Below are positions 3,088 through 55,220 of a stretch of DNA of 64,000 bases, piece after piece. Within the stretch, counting starts at the first letter, position 1, and each line of letters starts with the position of its first letter. A program made the position numbers and the translations under genes. The notes under the pieces are model-generated. The model saw only the letters and a list, made by a program, of their open reading frames with translations. It did not search any database and was not told the DNA's origin. The stretch comes from Paucimonas lemoignei (GTDB taxonomy: Bacteria > Pseudomonadota > Gammaproteobacteria > Pseudomonadales > Pseudomonadaceae): NCBI GenBank assembly GCA_900475325.1, contig LS483371.1, positions 3,100,001 through 3,164,000 on the forward strand, given 5' to 3'.

Positions 3088-3456
3088 TCAGCTGTCTTCG
3101 CGGCTATCGGGTTTTGATTTGATTGAATAGGAGGCGGACAACTCGGCCATGGTCATGGTCAGCCGTTTGATCGCGTCCTGATCTTCTTTATGCAGGGTTC
3201 TGTAGCTGCCCAGCACCTTCTCCTCGGAGGTGCTGAGATTGTCCACGGGGACGGGAGTAGGTTTTCCGGTCAGGACATACAGAATGTCCACGCCCTTTGC
3301 CGCCACAGCGGCCAGGTAATCGGCTTTTGGCGCACGATCCCCGCTTTCGTACTTTCCTTGAGCATTAGCCTCAACACCGCCGATTTCGCCGAAAGCTCGC
3401 TGAGACAAGCCCAAGCGTTCTCTTTCTTTTCTTAGTCGGGCACCAATTCCACTCAT
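3088..3456 (-). CDS. XRE/Cro-CI family repressor-like protein (phage-derived)
   Basis: A 122-residue DNA-binding protein with an N-terminal helix-turn-helix of the lambda repressor class (LRKERERLGLSQRAFGEIGG, then QGKYESGDRAPKADYLAAVA, about residues 6-60) and an uncharacterised C-terminal helical tail. Start chosen at ATG 3456, which has AGGA about 12 nt upstream; an ATG four codons earlier abuts that AGGA and is less likely. It is divergent from the small gene at 3539. This arrangement resembles the repressor/regulator pair of Mu-like phages such as BcepMu, but no other phage gene is present. Target operators are probably in the 82-nt divergent gap. Confidence 0.8.
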   Translation of the reverse strand: MSGIGARLRKERERLGLSQRAFGEIGGVEANAQGKYESGDRAPKADYLAAVAAKGVDILYVLTGKPTPVPVDNLSTSEEKVLGSYRTLHKEDQDAIKRLTMTMAELSASYSIKSKPDSREDS

Positions 3457-3538
3457 TTGAATGCACATTCCTGTTGACCCCATCCTTACGAATGGTAGAA
3501 TCGAGATAAAATTAAACTGATTTGAACGGTTTTGAACT
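3457..3538. promoter_or_regulatory. Divergent regulatory gap with two TTTGAAC direct repeats
   Basis: The only space between the divergent regulator genes. It is AT-rich near 3505-3535 and carries TTTGAAC twice (3521-3527 and 3531-3537), one helical turn apart, ending next to the ATG of the right-hand gene. I infer an operator overlapping the start of that gene. No Shine-Dalgarno sequence is visible for the right-hand gene, so occupancy here could block both transcription and initiation. Confidence 0.4.
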
Positions 3539-3778
3539 ATGCCCGGAATACGCACCGCTGCACAAGCCAAGGCGTGGCTTGAACAACAAGGCAAATCTGT
3601 TCAAGAGTTTGCTCGTGAGAACAGCGTTGACCCGGCGACTACTTATCAAGTATTGGCGGGTCGCAAAAAAGGCCGACGCGGCGAATCCCACAAGGTTGCG
3701 GTGCTTTTAGGTATGAAGATTGGCATCATTCCCGAGGCTCCCGCAACGCAGGGCGCGCCGCCCGCTGAACAGGATTGA
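3539..3778 (+). CDS. Small DNA-binding protein, BcepMu gp16-like
   Basis: A 79-residue protein with the pattern AKAWLEQQGKSVQEFAREN, then TTYQVLAGRKKGRRGESHKV and VLLGMKIG. This strongly recalls the BcepMu gp16 family of phage-associated helix-turn-helix proteins, found next to the repressor in Mu-like phages. The last 15 residues are Ala/Pro-rich and look like an unstructured tail. No good ribosome site precedes the ATG. Probably one half of a domesticated phage genetic switch with the divergent XRE gene. Family recognition is from memory; DNA binding is inferred. Confidence 0.75.
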   Translation: MPGIRTAAQAKAWLEQQGKSVQEFARENSVDPATTYQVLAGRKKGRRGESHKVAVLLGMKIGIIPEAPATQGAPPAEQD

Positions 3779-3797: not shown

Positions 3798-3816
3798 ACG
3801 CGAATTGAATTCGCGT
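3798..3816. repeat. 19-nt palindrome ACGCGAATTGAATTCGCGT
   Basis: Two perfect 9-nt arms around a single central G, about 20 nt after the stop of the phage-like gene. No T-run follows, so it is not a standard terminator; it could be a protein site or an mRNA 3' end structure. Confidence 0.5.
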
Positions 3817-3922
3817 CATGTTAAAGCGTGGCATTACGCCGCTACCTGAACTTGATTGATATTACTTATTGAACAGTCAAGCCACGCTGAAGTAAGCTCG
3901 CCGAACTAAACGGAGAACTAGC

Positions 3923-4066
3923 ATGTTGCCATCTACTTCACAGCAATCGTTGCCGACCGACGCCAAGCGTCTGGTTGCGGGCAGTGCTGTGTCCGTAGCA
4001 GTGGGCAGTGCTGTCGCAAACCGTCATTTTTATTTTGGGTATTGGTATAGCCACTGGCGCGCCTGA
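3923..4066 (+). CDS. Putative aromatic leader peptide 1 of aroF
   Basis: A 47-codon ORF with a good ribosome site (GGAG 7 nt before ATG 3923). Near its C-terminus it reads RHFYFGYWYSHWRA, that is two Phe, three Tyr and two Trp within ten codons (about 4028-4060). The stop TGA is 50 nt before a strong intrinsic terminator, and the next long gene is DAHP synthase, the first step of aromatic amino acid synthesis. This is the layout of a transcription-attenuation leader peptide. The earlier part (VAGSAVSVAVGSAVA) is encoded partly by a 12-nt direct repeat (3979-3990, 4003-4014). Attenuation is inference. Confidence 0.7.
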   Translation: MLPSTSQQSLPTDAKRLVAGSAVSVAVGSAVANRHFYFGYWYSHWRA

Positions 4067-4116
4067 TACCCATCCGGCGCCCAGATCAACGGGACGCCAA
4101 CCAAGAGAATTCTCTA

Positions 4117-4153
4117 CCCCCGGTCGGCTCCCCGACCGGGGGTTTTGTTTTTT
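4117..4153 (+). terminator. Strong intrinsic terminator (attenuator candidate) upstream of aroF
   Basis: A perfect 11-bp GC-rich stem (4117-4127 with 4132-4142, 4-nt loop) is followed by TTTTGTTTTTT (4143-4153). It lies between leader ORF 1 and aroF, with no full gene in between, so it probably stops transcription before aroF unless relieved. The 5' arm segment 4121-4128 (CGGTCGGC) is also perfectly complementary to 3952-3959 inside leader ORF 1, a possible alternative pairing. Confidence 0.88.
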
Positions 4154-4213
4154 CGGGCTTTGTAAAACCGTTCCACACTCTGAATTTTTCTGATTGATCA
4201 CGAGGATGCACCC

Positions 4214-4354
4214 ATGACTTACCGCACTTATTACCGCTTCGACATCAGCTACGCCTGGCGATTTAGCACCCTCCGTTCGGGACCAGCAGCCGCCTCCGAC
4301 CGGTCACTGTCAGGTGGCAAAACCCTTACGCCCCATTGTCGAACACCCCAGTAG
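4214..4354 (+). CDS. Putative tyrosine/aromatic leader peptide 2 of aroF
   Basis: A second short ORF of 46 codons between the terminator and aroF, with AGGA 7 nt before ATG 4214. Its start reads MTYRTYYRFDISYAWRF: four Tyr, two Phe and one Trp in the first 17 codons. Its TAG stop (4352-4354) touches the base of the hairpin at 4354-4382, which in turn touches the aroF ribosome site. The aromatic bias, ribosome site and position all support a regulatory leader; the mechanism (second attenuator or translational coupling) is not resolved. Confidence 0.62.
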   Translation: MTYRTYYRFDISYAWRFSTLRSGPAAASDRSLSGGKTLTPHCRTPQ

Positions 4355-4382
4355 GGCTGGGCGGGACACCCCCCGCCAGCCC
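4354..4382 (+). promoter_or_regulatory. GC-rich hairpin abutting the aroF ribosome binding site
   Basis: GGGCTGG (4354-4360) pairs with CCAGCCC (4376-4382), and CGGG (4362-4365) with CCCG (4372-4375), with one bulged G. No T-run follows, so it is not an intrinsic terminator. AGGA for aroF starts at 4383, directly after the stem. A ribosome ending leader ORF 2 would cover the 5' arm and open the stem, suggesting translational control. Confidence 0.6.
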
Positions 4383-4396
4383 AGGAAGCGAACATC

Positions 4397-5479
4397 ATGA
4401 ATTCATCCGTCGCCGTAAAACCCTCCGACCTGTCCCACAGCCGTCTCACCGCACTCGACGCCCGCCCGGCACCTCAACGCCTGCCCAGCAGCCTTGAACT
4501 CAAAGCCCGGTTACCCCTCAGCACCGCCTTGAGCGCGCAAGTCGCCGCCCACCGACGTGCGGTGCGCGCCATTCTCGACGGCGAAGACTCCCGCCTCTTG
4601 CTGATCGTCGGCCCGTGCTCCCTTCATGATCCTCGCTCAGCCCTTGAATACGCCGAACGTCTTGCGGACCTGGCGGCACAGGTCAGTGATCAGCTGCTGT
4701 TGGTGATGCGCGCCTACGTTGAAAAGCCGCGAACCACCGTCGGCTGGAAAGGCATGGCCTACGACCCACAACTCGATGGCAGCGACGACATGGCCCAGGG
4801 CCTGTCCCTGTCACGGGGTCTGATGATTGAAATGTTGCGCCTGGGCTTGCCGGTTGCGACGGAAATCCTGCAACCCATGGCCGCCGGGTACTTCGATGAC
4901 GTGCTGAGCTGGGTTGCCATTGGCGCGCGCACGACCGAGTCGCAGATCCACCGAGAAATGGCCAGCGGCCTGCCGATGCCCGTGGGCTTCAAAAATGGCA
5001 CCGATGGCGGCGTCGCGGTCGCCAGCGATGCCATGCGTTCGGCTGCCCACAGTCATCGCCATTTCGGCACCGACCCTCAGGGGCACCCGGCGATTATCGA
5101 AACCCTGGGCAATCGCAACACCCATATAGTCTTGCGCGGCGGGCACAACGGCCCTAATTACGATCAGCACAGCGTGAGTCAGGTTCGAGCCGGTCTGGCC
5201 AAGCATCGGATTGCCGAGCGCATCATGGTCGATTGCAGTCACGCCAACAGCGGCAAAGACCCGCTTCGCCAGCCCCAGGTGTTCAGCGACGTGCTTGAGC
5301 AACGCCTGCGAGGCGACCATTCGTTGATTGGCATGATGCTGGAAAGCCACCTGTTTGAAGGGTGCCAAGCGATCAGCGATGACATGCGCTATGGGGTTTC
5401 AGTGACCGACGGTTGCCTGGGCTGGGAGGCGACTGAAGAACTGTTGCAAAGCGCAGTCCAGCGCCTGCGCTACAGATAA
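4397..5479 (+). CDS. aroF: 3-deoxy-7-phosphoheptulonate synthase, type I (DAHP synthase)
   Basis: Condenses phosphoenolpyruvate and erythrose 4-phosphate to DAHP, the entry to the shikimate pathway. The 360 residues match class I-alpha enzymes (AroF/G/H). Visible signatures: LLIVGPCSLHDP, RAYVEKPRTTVGWKG, GARTTESQIHREMASGL, VGFKNGTDGG, LRGGHNGPNY and VDCSHANSGKD, which carry substrate and metal ligands. Start at ATG 4397 with AGGA about 10 nt upstream. Expression is probably set by the leader region, whose Tyr/Phe/Trp codons fit control by aromatic amino acid supply. Which amino acid inhibits the enzyme cannot be read here; I use aroF for the tyrosine-type paralogue by inference. Confidence 0.93.
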   Translation: MNSSVAVKPSDLSHSRLTALDARPAPQRLPSSLELKARLPLSTALSAQVAAHRRAVRAILDGEDSRLLLIVGPCSLHDPRSALEYAERLADLAAQVSDQLLLVMRAYVEKPRTTVGWKGMAYDPQLDGSDDMAQGLSLSRGLMIEMLRLGLPVATEILQPMAAGYFDDVLSWVAIGARTTESQIHREMASGLPMPVGFKNGTDGGVAVASDAMRSAAHSHRHFGTDPQGHPAIIETLGNRNTHIVLRGGHNGPNYDQHSVSQVRAGLAKHRIAERIMVDCSHANSGKDPLRQPQVFSDVLEQRLRGDHSLIGMMLESHLFEGCQAISDDMRYGVSVTDGCLGWEATEELLQSAVQRLRYR

Positions 5480-15845: not shown

Positions 15846-16542
15846 ATATCCAGCAGCGGCGGTGACGCTGATTCACCTTTGCGCCCTTACGGCGCGTCAC
15901 TTTCGAAAAGCCGGGATGCCGGCCCAGACGAAAGTAACCAAAGCGCTCCCGCTCCTCTGTCCGGGTCTTCGCCAAGGCTCAGACTTCCCTCGCTCCGGCA
16001 TTGCTCCGTGGGCCGCCGCAATGGGCCATCCATGGCCCGGTGCGGCTAACCCGGCATCCATGCCGGGTTGCCCACTACTCAATACCTGCGCTCGGCCGGC
16101 CACAAGTCGCAATTTATGTCGCTCATAAATTTTGCGCAGACCCACAGAATCAAAAGCAGCGTGTGGGTCAGGAAGGAATTGATGCTAAAAATCTGCAAAG
16201 CAGATTTGCTTTTGCCTTTGCTTTTCCTGCCACGATTTCCCAGACGACGCAAAATGCGCGTCGGGAGGCTGAGTGGAGGTGCCGTGGGGTGGGTCGCTCG
16301 GCATGGATGCCGAGCGAGCGCCGTTGGGCCATGGATGGCCCGTCGGCGCGTGCCCGCCCCACGGTGCCGGAGCGAAGGGACCGCCGCGAAGCGGGGGCCG
16401 TACGCCAGCGCAGAGGTTTTGGTTACTTTTGGCACCAAAAGTGACCCGGCCGTCAGGACGGAACCTGACTCAGCAGCGACTGGATGCTGTTGTTGCCACT
16501 CGATTCAAGGCGCAGTGCTTTGATTCGTCGAAGCTACAGACA
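15846..16542 (+). repeat. Large composite intergenic repeat, copy A
   Basis: About 700 bp nearly identical, in inverted orientation, to 48643-49382, and related to 54351-55172. It has two facing arms with the same landmarks in the same order: a CACTTT...AAAGTAACCAAA segment, CTCCGGCA, the palindrome GGGCCATCCATGGCCC, then CGGCATCCATGCCG. A less conserved AT-richer core (around 16170-16240) joins the arms. Short frames inside it are repeat artefacts: no start or codon signature holds across copies. No transposase is encoded. Confidence 0.85.
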
Positions 16543-48642: not shown

Positions 48643-49382
48643 GGCAGCTCCTCGTATGTTTGTAGCTTCGCCAAATCAAGGTGGTGAGCCTTGAATCGAG
48701 TAGCAACAACAGCATCCAGGTGCTGCTGAGTCAGGTTCCGTCCTGACGGCCGGGTCACTTTTGGTGCCAAAAGTAACCAAAACCTCTGCGCTGGCGTCCG
48801 GCCCCCGCTTCGCGGCGGTTCCTTCGCTCCGGCACCGTGGGGCGGGCACGCGCCGACGGGCCATCCATGGCCCAACGGCGCTCGCTCGGCATCCATGCCG
48901 AGCGACCCACCCCACGGCACCTCCACTCAGCCTCCCGACGCGCATTTTGCGTCGTCTGTGAAATTGCGGCAGGAAAGCAAAAAGCAAAAAGCAAAAAGCA
49001 AAAAGCAAAAAGCAAATCTGCTTAGCAGATTTCTCCAGCATGACCTCACTTCTTCCTGACTCACACGCTGCTTTTGATTCTGGGGATATGCGCAAAATTT
49101 ATGAGCGACACAAATTGCGACTTGTGGCCGGCCGAGCGCAGGTATTGCGTAGTGGGCAACCCGGCATGGATGCAGGGTTAGCCGCAGCGGGCCATGGATG
49201 GCCCATTGCGGCGGCCCACGGAGCAATGCCGGAGTGAGGGAAGTCTGAGCCTTGGCGAAGACCCGGACAAAGGAGCGGGAGCGTTTTGCTTACTTTTGAC
49301 TGGGCCGGCATTCCGGCTGTTCAAAAGTGAGGCGCCGTAAGGGCGCAAAGGTGAATCAGCGTCGCCGCCGCTACTGGATATG
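48643..49382 (-). repeat. Large composite intergenic repeat, copy B
   Basis: Inverted, near-identical copy of 15846-16556. It starts three bases after the inhibitor stop codon and has the same two-arm plan. The outer end near 49380 (GATTCACCTTTGCGCCCTTA on the minus strand) matches copy A exactly. Its core differs, carrying a GCAAAAA tandem array. Several long frames on both strands inside it mirror those of copy A and are artefacts of the repeat. Confidence 0.87.
48977..49013. repeat. Tandem GCAAAAA array inside copy B
   Basis: Five perfect 7-bp units GCAAAAA then GCAAA, in the AT-rich core joining the two arms. Copy A has no such regular array at this site, and copy C has ATCAAG units instead, so the core is the variable part. 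Confidence 0.9.
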
Positions 49383-54830: not shown

Positions 54831-55220
54831 CAATGATGGAAACAATCAAGGTAGGACGGCAGGCGCACAAAAAAGCAGGTCGGCTATCAGGCCGCCTCGC
54901 GCGCTTTTGATCCTGGGCGCCCCGTTAAACCACGCTGGCCGAACGCAGGCCTTGAACCGTGGGTAACCCGGCAGGACGCCGGGTTAGCCGCACTGGGCCA
55001 GGGATGGCCCTTTGCGGCGGCCCACGGTTCAAGGTCTGCGGGCGGGTACACCGAGCCTAGGCGAGGTGCCGAGTGGTGGGGCAAGAGCGTTTTGCTTACT
55101 TTTGCGCTTTCAAAAGTGAGGCGCCGTAAGGGCGCAACCCTAGGTAGCCGTTACCGCAACAATGGATATGTACTCAAAAAGAGATGTGTAGCCCCCCATG
55201 CTTATGGCGCGCAAGAGCAA

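Follow-up and report, generated by a model that had tools for sequence, protein, structure and literature searches.

DAHP synthase is the first enzyme of the shikimate pathway and of aromatic amino acid synthesis. In the stretch of DNA analyzed here, 64,000 nucleotides long and referred to as the window, a gene for this enzyme lies behind two short open reading frames, and the locus raises the question of whether both frames are leaders that act on the same gene, one after the other. The gene, aroF (4397-5479), encodes a type I DAHP synthase (NCBIfam PRK12755.1, 2e-155; TIGR00034 aroFGH, 3.3e-131; Pfam PF00793). Read 5' to 3' on the plus strand, on which all features lie unless stated otherwise, it is preceded by ORF1, a terminator, ORF2, and a hairpin reaching the aroF ribosome site. 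The original prediction had placed two ORFs with ribosome sites at 3923-4066 and 4214-4354; these coordinates held, as did the ATG starts and the purine-rich ribosome sites 5' of both frames. The reading we favor, with a probability of about 0.77, is that one aroF transcript carries two consecutive leaders, a his-type transcription attenuator followed by an ORF2 leader coupled to aroF translation.

Upstream of both frames, a likely sigma-70-type promoter (TTGAAC-18 nt-TAAGCT) was seen by eye at 3869-3898. Its ATTG and GTAAGCT columns were conserved to at least 90% in a 55-locus alignment; a simple automated scan did not return this candidate. By eye, it is the single promoter-like site before both leaders, and the stretch between the terminator and ORF2 was freely variable in the 55-locus alignment. 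Taken together, the variable stretch and the single promoter-like site suggest that the two leaders most likely share one transcript. Small ORFs lie further upstream on opposite strands, at 3088-3594 (minus) and 3539-3778 (plus), the former resembling an XRE-type regulator by eye. Elsewhere in the window, the Rfam family TwoAYGGAY gave four matches on both strands (16010-16072, 16291-16355, 48844-48908, and 54928-55052) at 46 to 51 bits against a gathering score of 43; three of the four span only the middle of the model, and the matches may be repeat hairpins rather than true members.

ORF1 and its identity with the Rfam family P15

ORF1 (3923-4066) encodes 47 amino acids and ends HFYFGYWYSHWRA, its C-terminal end reading FYFGYWYSHWRA. 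The 3' part of this frame, together with the attenuator that follows it, is the same element as the Rfam family P15 (RF00627). The covariance model matched 4024-4142 with 125.6 bits (E 2.1e-25, cmscan), well into the family given its gathering score of 70, and the genome has one copy. By this match, the window derives from a genome of Pseudomonas type. A weaker P15 match on the opposite strand (4117-4171, minus; 24.2 bits, E 0.0072) arises because the terminator is palindromic, and a similar second match on the other strand was seen in another genome (G016). Apart from P15 on both strands, a search of 3860-4460 against Rfam at E values up to 1 returned only a weak match over the terminator; no T-box was matched in this search, and ARAGORN found no tRNA-like fold in 3800-4500. 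The original prediction had overlooked that ORF1 corresponds to P15, and likewise the pseudoknot within ORF2 that is described below.

The conservation of the aromatic codons was examined in 115 Pseudomonas loci (L001-L115), all selected by a P15 match, which itself spans the ORF1 core. One script recovered the aromatic core in 112 of the 115 and a wider pattern in all 115, the core being counted from the Gly-Tyr-Trp codons onward; the loci missed by the first script lay on cut contigs or had TAC instead of TAT. Across the 112 loci, which were anchored on TATTGG, the aligned ORF1 positions 12, 13, 14, and 18 lie outside the anchor and were aromatic in 88, 100, 100, and 100%, respectively. Upstream of the core, ORF1 was variable. 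ORF1 is a leader frame with clustered codons for the products of the pathway, and the aromatic codons to which the original prediction had drawn attention are conserved across loci.

An intrinsic terminator lies between ORF1 and the structural gene. As had been claimed, it is strong: a stem-loop at 4116-4143 with 12 pairs, 10 of them G-C, followed by a T-run, TTTGTTTTTT. In the 84 sequences chosen out of the 115 loci, to which the pairing percentages of A:B, C:D, and the terminator refer, 99.3% of terminator cells were paired, and three pairs had changed on both sides. From the end of ORF1 into this terminator, two alternative sets of helices can be drawn. Helix A:B (4036-4072; 95.3% of cells paired) is expected with free translation of ORF1 and can coexist with helix C:D (4076-4098; 98.1%), while the alternative helix B:C (4054-4084; 96.9% of core cells paired) is expected when a ribosome stalls at the aromatic codons. 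The proposed antiterminator, helix D:E, would pair 4090-4098 with 4126-4134.

In folding calculations, the free leader adopted A:B, C:D, and the terminator at -59.7 kcal/mol (z -5.6). With the bases up to 4043 omitted, which mimics a stalled ribosome, B:C replaced both A:B and C:D. The terminator was retained in this equilibrium fold, so that antitermination must depend on timing. B:C hardly varies between loci, and covariation therefore lends it no support. The spacing of D:E varies between loci, and on fixed columns 283 of 500 shuffles reached its native count; when D:E duplex energies were compared with permuted partners, the native mean was -14.08 against -13.27 (sd 0.24), and none of 2000 permutations was as good, in a test of 35 distinct combinations with the relatedness of the sequences left in. 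In the known his leader, A:B and C:D with the terminator are set against B:C and D:E. Because the alternative helices of P15 resemble this layout, we read P15 as the RNA left by termination at a ribosome-mediated transcription attenuator before aroF, a reading well supported by the comparisons; stalling of the ribosome, and the read-through that would result from it, are predicted from the same features.

Furthermore, the association of P15 with aroF was strict in the loci read. P15 was present in 269 of 298 genomes sampled from the genus (268 above the cut-off), and aroF lay 3' of P15 in 115 of 115 Pseudomonas loci. Among genomes drawn from the order, 27 of 293 had P15, in 11 of 118 genera; these belonged to its own family, where two more genera had it, or to two other families (f36 and f43), in which part of the matches fell below the gathering score. 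All 15 P15 loci fetched from outside the family preceded a DAHP synthase 57 to 65% identical to that of the window. The aroF protein was compared with 20 of the 29 genus genomes that lack P15. In 19, no DAHP synthase exceeded 56% identity, and in the other (G227) a contig end cut the close aroF ortholog. In P15-less genomes, a leader with 5 aromatic residues among 10 codons was found at none of the 19 paralog loci inspected; the check required 200 bases or more of upstream sequence, and three loci were dropped as too short. A set of far loci was also assembled regardless of leaders, comprising the best 30 aroF matches of 61 f36 genomes and the best 30 of 40 f43 genomes; of the other loci retrieved, L142-L150 and L226-L240 entered the analysis by their coordinates alone. 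Here a script found an ORF1-type leader before aroF in 57 of 60, and the other three (L204, L222, and L225) show one in the sequence listing; a terminator-like hairpin with a T-run was found in 54 of 60, and two of the remaining six, L186 and L189, have one on visual inspection. When named genomes were scanned for an 18-base pattern estimated from the Rfam consensus, only four unrelated chance matches came up. By membership in the family, P15 of P. aeruginosa probably also precedes aroF.

P15 is said to have been reported as a Pseudomonas sRNA by Livny and colleagues in 2006. In Rfam it is entered under genes, as a Pseudomonas sRNA, and it might accordingly act in trans on targets of its own, its position before aroF being incidental and ORF1 a by-product. 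We consider this highly unlikely, since the conserved part of P15 is an in-frame peptide with aromatic codons, standing before aroF in 115 of 115 and 15 of 15 loci, since P15 was absent from all 19 checked genomes without the close aroF gene, and since, as far as the accessible part of that paper goes, P15 was already suspected to be a cis element (Livny and Waldor 2008). In the accessible parts of the open-licence literature, including PMC4263517, PMC2375449, PMC2527527, PMC2864571, PMC1173090, and PMC6435475, no description of P15 as an aroF attenuator was found. ORF1 is thus a known element under a new reading: filed in Rfam as an sRNA gene, it appears here as a terminated aroF leader that can be traced into two other families. 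The conserved codons, the alternative helices, the conserved terminator, and the strict link to aroF all argue for the proposal, made in the original prediction, that ORF1 is a transcription attenuator responding to Phe, Tyr, and Trp.

ORF2 and the pseudoknot inside it

ORF2 (4214-4354) encodes 46 amino acids with a Tyr-rich start (MTYRTYYRFDISYAWRF..., peptide MTYRTYYRF) and ends in a TAG stop. The frame could be read in 113 of the 115 loci; the other two are cut contigs that both contain the ORF2 motif, and by the wider pattern the cores of both ORF1 and ORF2 were present in 115 of 115. The stop was TAG in 110 of 113. Two to five Tyr codons fell within about 12 codons in 110 of 113 sequences; a Tyr frequency of around 2.5% predicts roughly 0.3. 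The positions of these codons shift between lineages and their number is kept, with Tyr predominating at codons 3, 6, 7, and 9 in the long ORF2 class (87 loci). The three sequences scored as having none are probably L042, L043, and L049, where the script took an internal ATG as the start.

Further into the frame, TGGCGATTTAGC (4256-4267), the codons Trp-Arg(CGA)-Phe(TTT)-Ser, stands about 5 nt before the pseudoknot and was also seen in f36, where the ORF2 core likewise sits after Tyr codons. The string TGGCGATTT was found in the aroF leader of all 115 loci; TGG-CGA-TTT served as the search anchor of the codon table, so that its invariance in that table is by construction. Outside the anchor, the codon sets TCG, GCC-GCC-TCC, CGG, GGT-GGC, and TGT-CGA-ACA showed almost no synonymous variation in the 87 long-class sequences, though the peptide permits it, which indicates that the constraint on ORF2 acts at the base level. 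A short ORF2 class in the genus (e.g., L028, L029, and L061) retains the Tyr codons, TGGCGATTTA, and the terminal part, whereas its middle is not conserved. Two in-frame CGA codons, one in WRF and one near the end in RTP, are kept in long-class ORF2; CGA is seldom used for Arg in genomes of this kind, and these two codons are possible pause sites.

In addition, comparison of the loci revealed an H-type pseudoknot that begins about 5 nt 3' of TGGCGATTTAGC. Its stem S1 pairs 4273-4280 with 4296-4303 and its stem S2 pairs 4289-4294 with 4313-4318; the corresponding model (R1) matched 4256-4327. In an ungapped alignment of 49 sequences, 29 from f36 and 20 from long-class Pseudomonas hand-picked for diversity, 91.8% of cells paired, and 8 of 14 pairs changed on both sides, a count reached by 2 of 500 shuffles. 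The covariation score was 0.207 against a shuffled mean of 0.111 (reached by 0 of 500), and with the partners slid it lay between 0.026 and 0.117. One S1 pair, of columns 21 and 45, failed in 20 of the 49, mostly in Pseudomonas. Two loci (L186 and L189) have wholly different stems in unchanged order, as do L165, L190, and L194; those of them that are out of register were scored as misses in the covariation count. In four others (L183, L199, L202, and L204) the CGATTTAGC core is kept and a plain hairpin replaces the pseudoknot (GCCGGC-GCCGGC in L199).

When scored against synonymous shuffles, the pseudoknot of 18 of 30 f36 segments beat all 60 shuffles, and 23 of 30 ranked in the top 5%. The corresponding result for Pseudomonas was weak, at 7 and 13 of 109, in a control that is strict because the ORF2 peptide is itself shaped by the stems. 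Twenty-two of the 109 Pseudomonas segments scored worse than -20, mostly members of the short ORF2 class, together with L015 and L054 of the long class, and the score was zero in 10 of 10 f43 segments. By these scores, the pseudoknot appears clearly weaker in Pseudomonas than in f36. When the consensus fold of the ORF2 region was computed from Pseudomonas alone, the result was weak, because the stems hardly vary there and one crosses the other, and a covariation ranking on the Pseudomonas ORF2 set was uninformative, being dominated by C/U variation at single columns. Using fast filters, which lose weak matches, the pseudoknot model matched 15 of 293 genomes of the order, once each and by coordinates always in the aroF leader, and 2 of 274 genomes drawn from the class, both in the order. 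Rfam searches returned nothing for the pseudoknot, whether in the window (E up to 1) or in four relatives that contain it (L172, L184, L186, and L190; E up to 0.05), and no description of it was found in the accessible parts of the open-licence literature.

Being a compact, conserved fold ahead of a biosynthetic gene, the pseudoknot could be taken for a ligand-binding riboswitch inside ORF2. Apart from a frequent CAG and a U, visual inspection of its loops gave no constant set of unpaired bases, and its stems are all replaceable, which makes this very unlikely. Another possibility is that ORF2 encodes a small working protein and is not a regulatory leader. The frame is open from ATG to stop in 113 loci, and the peptide core WRFS..RS....SDR...GG is common to two families. 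Against this, the constraint lies on the bases, as shown by the near absence of synonymous variation in 87 sequences; the shared peptide follows from the pseudoknot stems and changes where they change (L186 and L190); and the peptide belongs to no Pfam or NCBIfam family. A protein function for ORF2 is hence improbable to a high degree, and we continue to read it as a leader.

ORF1 and ORF2 are not equally fixed, as relatives exist that have ORF1 without ORF2. The ORF2 motif was absent in 24 of the 60 far aroF loci (4 of 30 in f36 and 20 of 30 in f43), which marks leader 2 as a dispensable, optional module; in L151, L155, and L158, aroF directly follows the terminator, with no ORF2 between them.

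The junction between ORF2 and aroF

A second hairpin lacking a T-run, also foreseen in the original prediction, lies between the ORF2 stop codon and the aroF ribosome site. This hairpin, P2 (about 4354-4382), begins at the end of the stop codon and finishes 0 to 2 nt before the ribosome site in 94 of 110 loci, a count that omits three further loci without a ribosome site of the searched form. Among the 16 exceptions, 12 hairpins start later, three end earlier, and one locus (L091) has none. The P2 stems show compensating changes (GGGC/GCCC, GGTC/GACC, GGAC/GTCC, and GGGTT/AACCC). Where an aroF start could be assigned, the distance to it from the ORF2 stop was 40 to 50 nt in 104 of 111 loci of the genus. 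A start was likewise assigned in 30 of 36 far loci, and there the distance was -17 (three loci), -4 (four), 2 (one), 5 (three), 11 (one), 22 (one), or 25 to 45 nt (17). The ORF2 stop is thus either near the aroF start or brought near it. As P2 and the stop-start overlaps would both bring a terminating ribosome to the aroF start, we infer that aroF translation is likely coupled to that of ORF2.

Leader 2 might instead work on transcription, with the ribosome on ORF2 deciding whether Rho terminates in a C-rich stretch before the stop. In the window, the segment between the pseudoknot and the ORF2 stop is C-rich, such stretches have little consistent predicted pairing in the long class, and P2 is not followed by a T-run. 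The hairpin running from stop to ribosome site and the stop-start overlaps indicate translation and speak against the Rho reading, which we regard as unlikely; a leader coupled to aroF translation remains our preferred reading.

The original prediction had proposed that ORF2 is a translational leader sensing Tyr and Phe. The Tyr codons, P2, and the stop-start overlaps support a Tyr-rich translational leader in outline, whereas masking of the ribosome site was unsupported by folding. The mean unpaired fraction of the aroF ribosome site was 0.41 to 0.50 at all 11 cut points, with no trend, in 107 to 108 distinct sequences, a set that excluded L084 and L085, which may differ. Masking of this site by ORF2 structures was therefore rejected, as removal of the 5' part did not open it. 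The two divergent loci have a longer ORF2 with a TGA stop. In L084 the ribosome site AAGG sits in the loop of a hairpin (GGGCGAU-AAGG-AUCGCCC), which is weaker in L085, so that direct masking is possible there.

Programmed frameshifting on ORF2, driven by the pseudoknot, was also considered. An H-type pseudoknot about 5 nt 3' of a conserved codon string comes close to the geometry typical of frameshift sites, and in the far loci one frame relation between ORF2 and aroF prevails (26 of 36). However, across the 115 Pseudomonas loci the relation is spread over the three frames (46, 36, and 33). The -1 frame, which is the prevailing relation in the far loci, is closed at or before aroF in all 36 far loci and in 92 of the 115 from Pseudomonas; for the +1 frame, the corresponding counts are 26 and 81. 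Since the -1 frame is closed in every far locus, ORF2 and aroF are not fused by frameshifting. To our knowledge, CGA-TTT-AGC is not a known slippery heptamer. With neither a slippery site nor a kept frame, frameshifting into aroF was rejected, and any role of frameshifting on ORF2 seems extremely unlikely.

A proposed pair of consecutive leaders on one gene

In the mechanism that we propose, the ribosome on ORF1 would decide the fate of the transcript. When Phe, Tyr, and Trp are plentiful, it would reach the ORF1 stop, A:B and C:D would form, and the terminator would then end the transcript, leaving a short RNA, P15. When an aromatic tRNA is uncharged, the ribosome would stall on F-Y-F-G-Y-W-F/Y, allowing B:C and then D:E to form. 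Segment D (4090-4098), freed by B:C, would then base-pair inside the terminator, at 4126-4134; with D:E formed, the terminator would be blocked and RNA polymerase would continue. Leader 2 would act on the transcripts that pass leader 1. Ribosomes on ORF2 would read its Tyr-rich start and then TGG-CGA-TTT, with the pseudoknot just ahead, and would finish at a stop joined by a hairpin to the aroF ribosome site, from which coupled translation of aroF could follow. Stalling at the Tyr codons of ORF2 might either raise aroF translation, by keeping ORF2 traffic off the aroF ribosome site, or lower it, by breaking the coupling; a lowered translation, as expected under coupling, is odd for a biosynthetic gene.

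A comparison with hisL of enteric bacteria shows the same use of regulatory codons and, in the proposed scheme, of competing helices. Unlike hisL, the aroF leader reads Phe, Tyr, and Trp, serves a single DAHP synthase gene, and has a second leader behind it. In the repY-repZ system of IncI-type plasmids, a translated leader and a pseudoknot precede a gene whose translation is coupled to that of the leader, under control by an antisense RNA. Leader translation, pseudoknot, and the proposed coupling are alike in aroF, whereas the gene, the position of the pseudoknot, and the antisense RNA control differ. From what is accessible of the published descriptions, the closest parallels found are uORFC-13-1 and the LEU element. 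The former, before aroF of Acholeplasma (PMC8632094), has a leader ORF with a run of Phe codons and a terminator before a DAHP synthase gene, as here; it is a single leader in another phylum, and the accessible part describes no second leader or pseudoknot. The latter, before actinobacterial leuA (PMC1262725), resembles leader 2 in having a leader ORF rich in the product amino acid, there Leu, together with a conserved pseudoknot ahead of the gene that opens the pathway; according to the accessible part, a base stem there joins the Leu codons to the leuA ribosome site. In leader 2 of aroF, by comparison, folding showed no change of the ribosome site with the 5' part of the leader, and a hairpin from stop to ribosome site is found instead. 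No account of the second leader turned up in the accessible parts of the open-licence literature.

Collectively, these findings give a widely conserved RNA that is listed as an sRNA a concrete and readily testable function, that of an attenuated aroF leader, and add a conserved pseudoknot within a Tyr-rich leader ORF, present in two families and with no Rfam match in the sequences searched. We see an even chance that the DAHP synthase of Pseudomonadales is governed by two stacked devices that read the ribosome, with ORF2 and its pseudoknot metering the ribosomes passed to aroF through the hairpin between stop and ribosome site; whether the second leader, as part of this arrangement, forms an undescribed leader class is just as evenly balanced. 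If true, the supply of aromatics would be sensed at two points, for each transcript and again for each round of translation, and a transcription attenuator joined to a coupled translational leader on one gene would show a single signal read at two steps. Natural variants with leader 1 alone permit a direct comparison. Feedback on DAHP synthase is also relevant to the production of aromatics in Pseudomonas.
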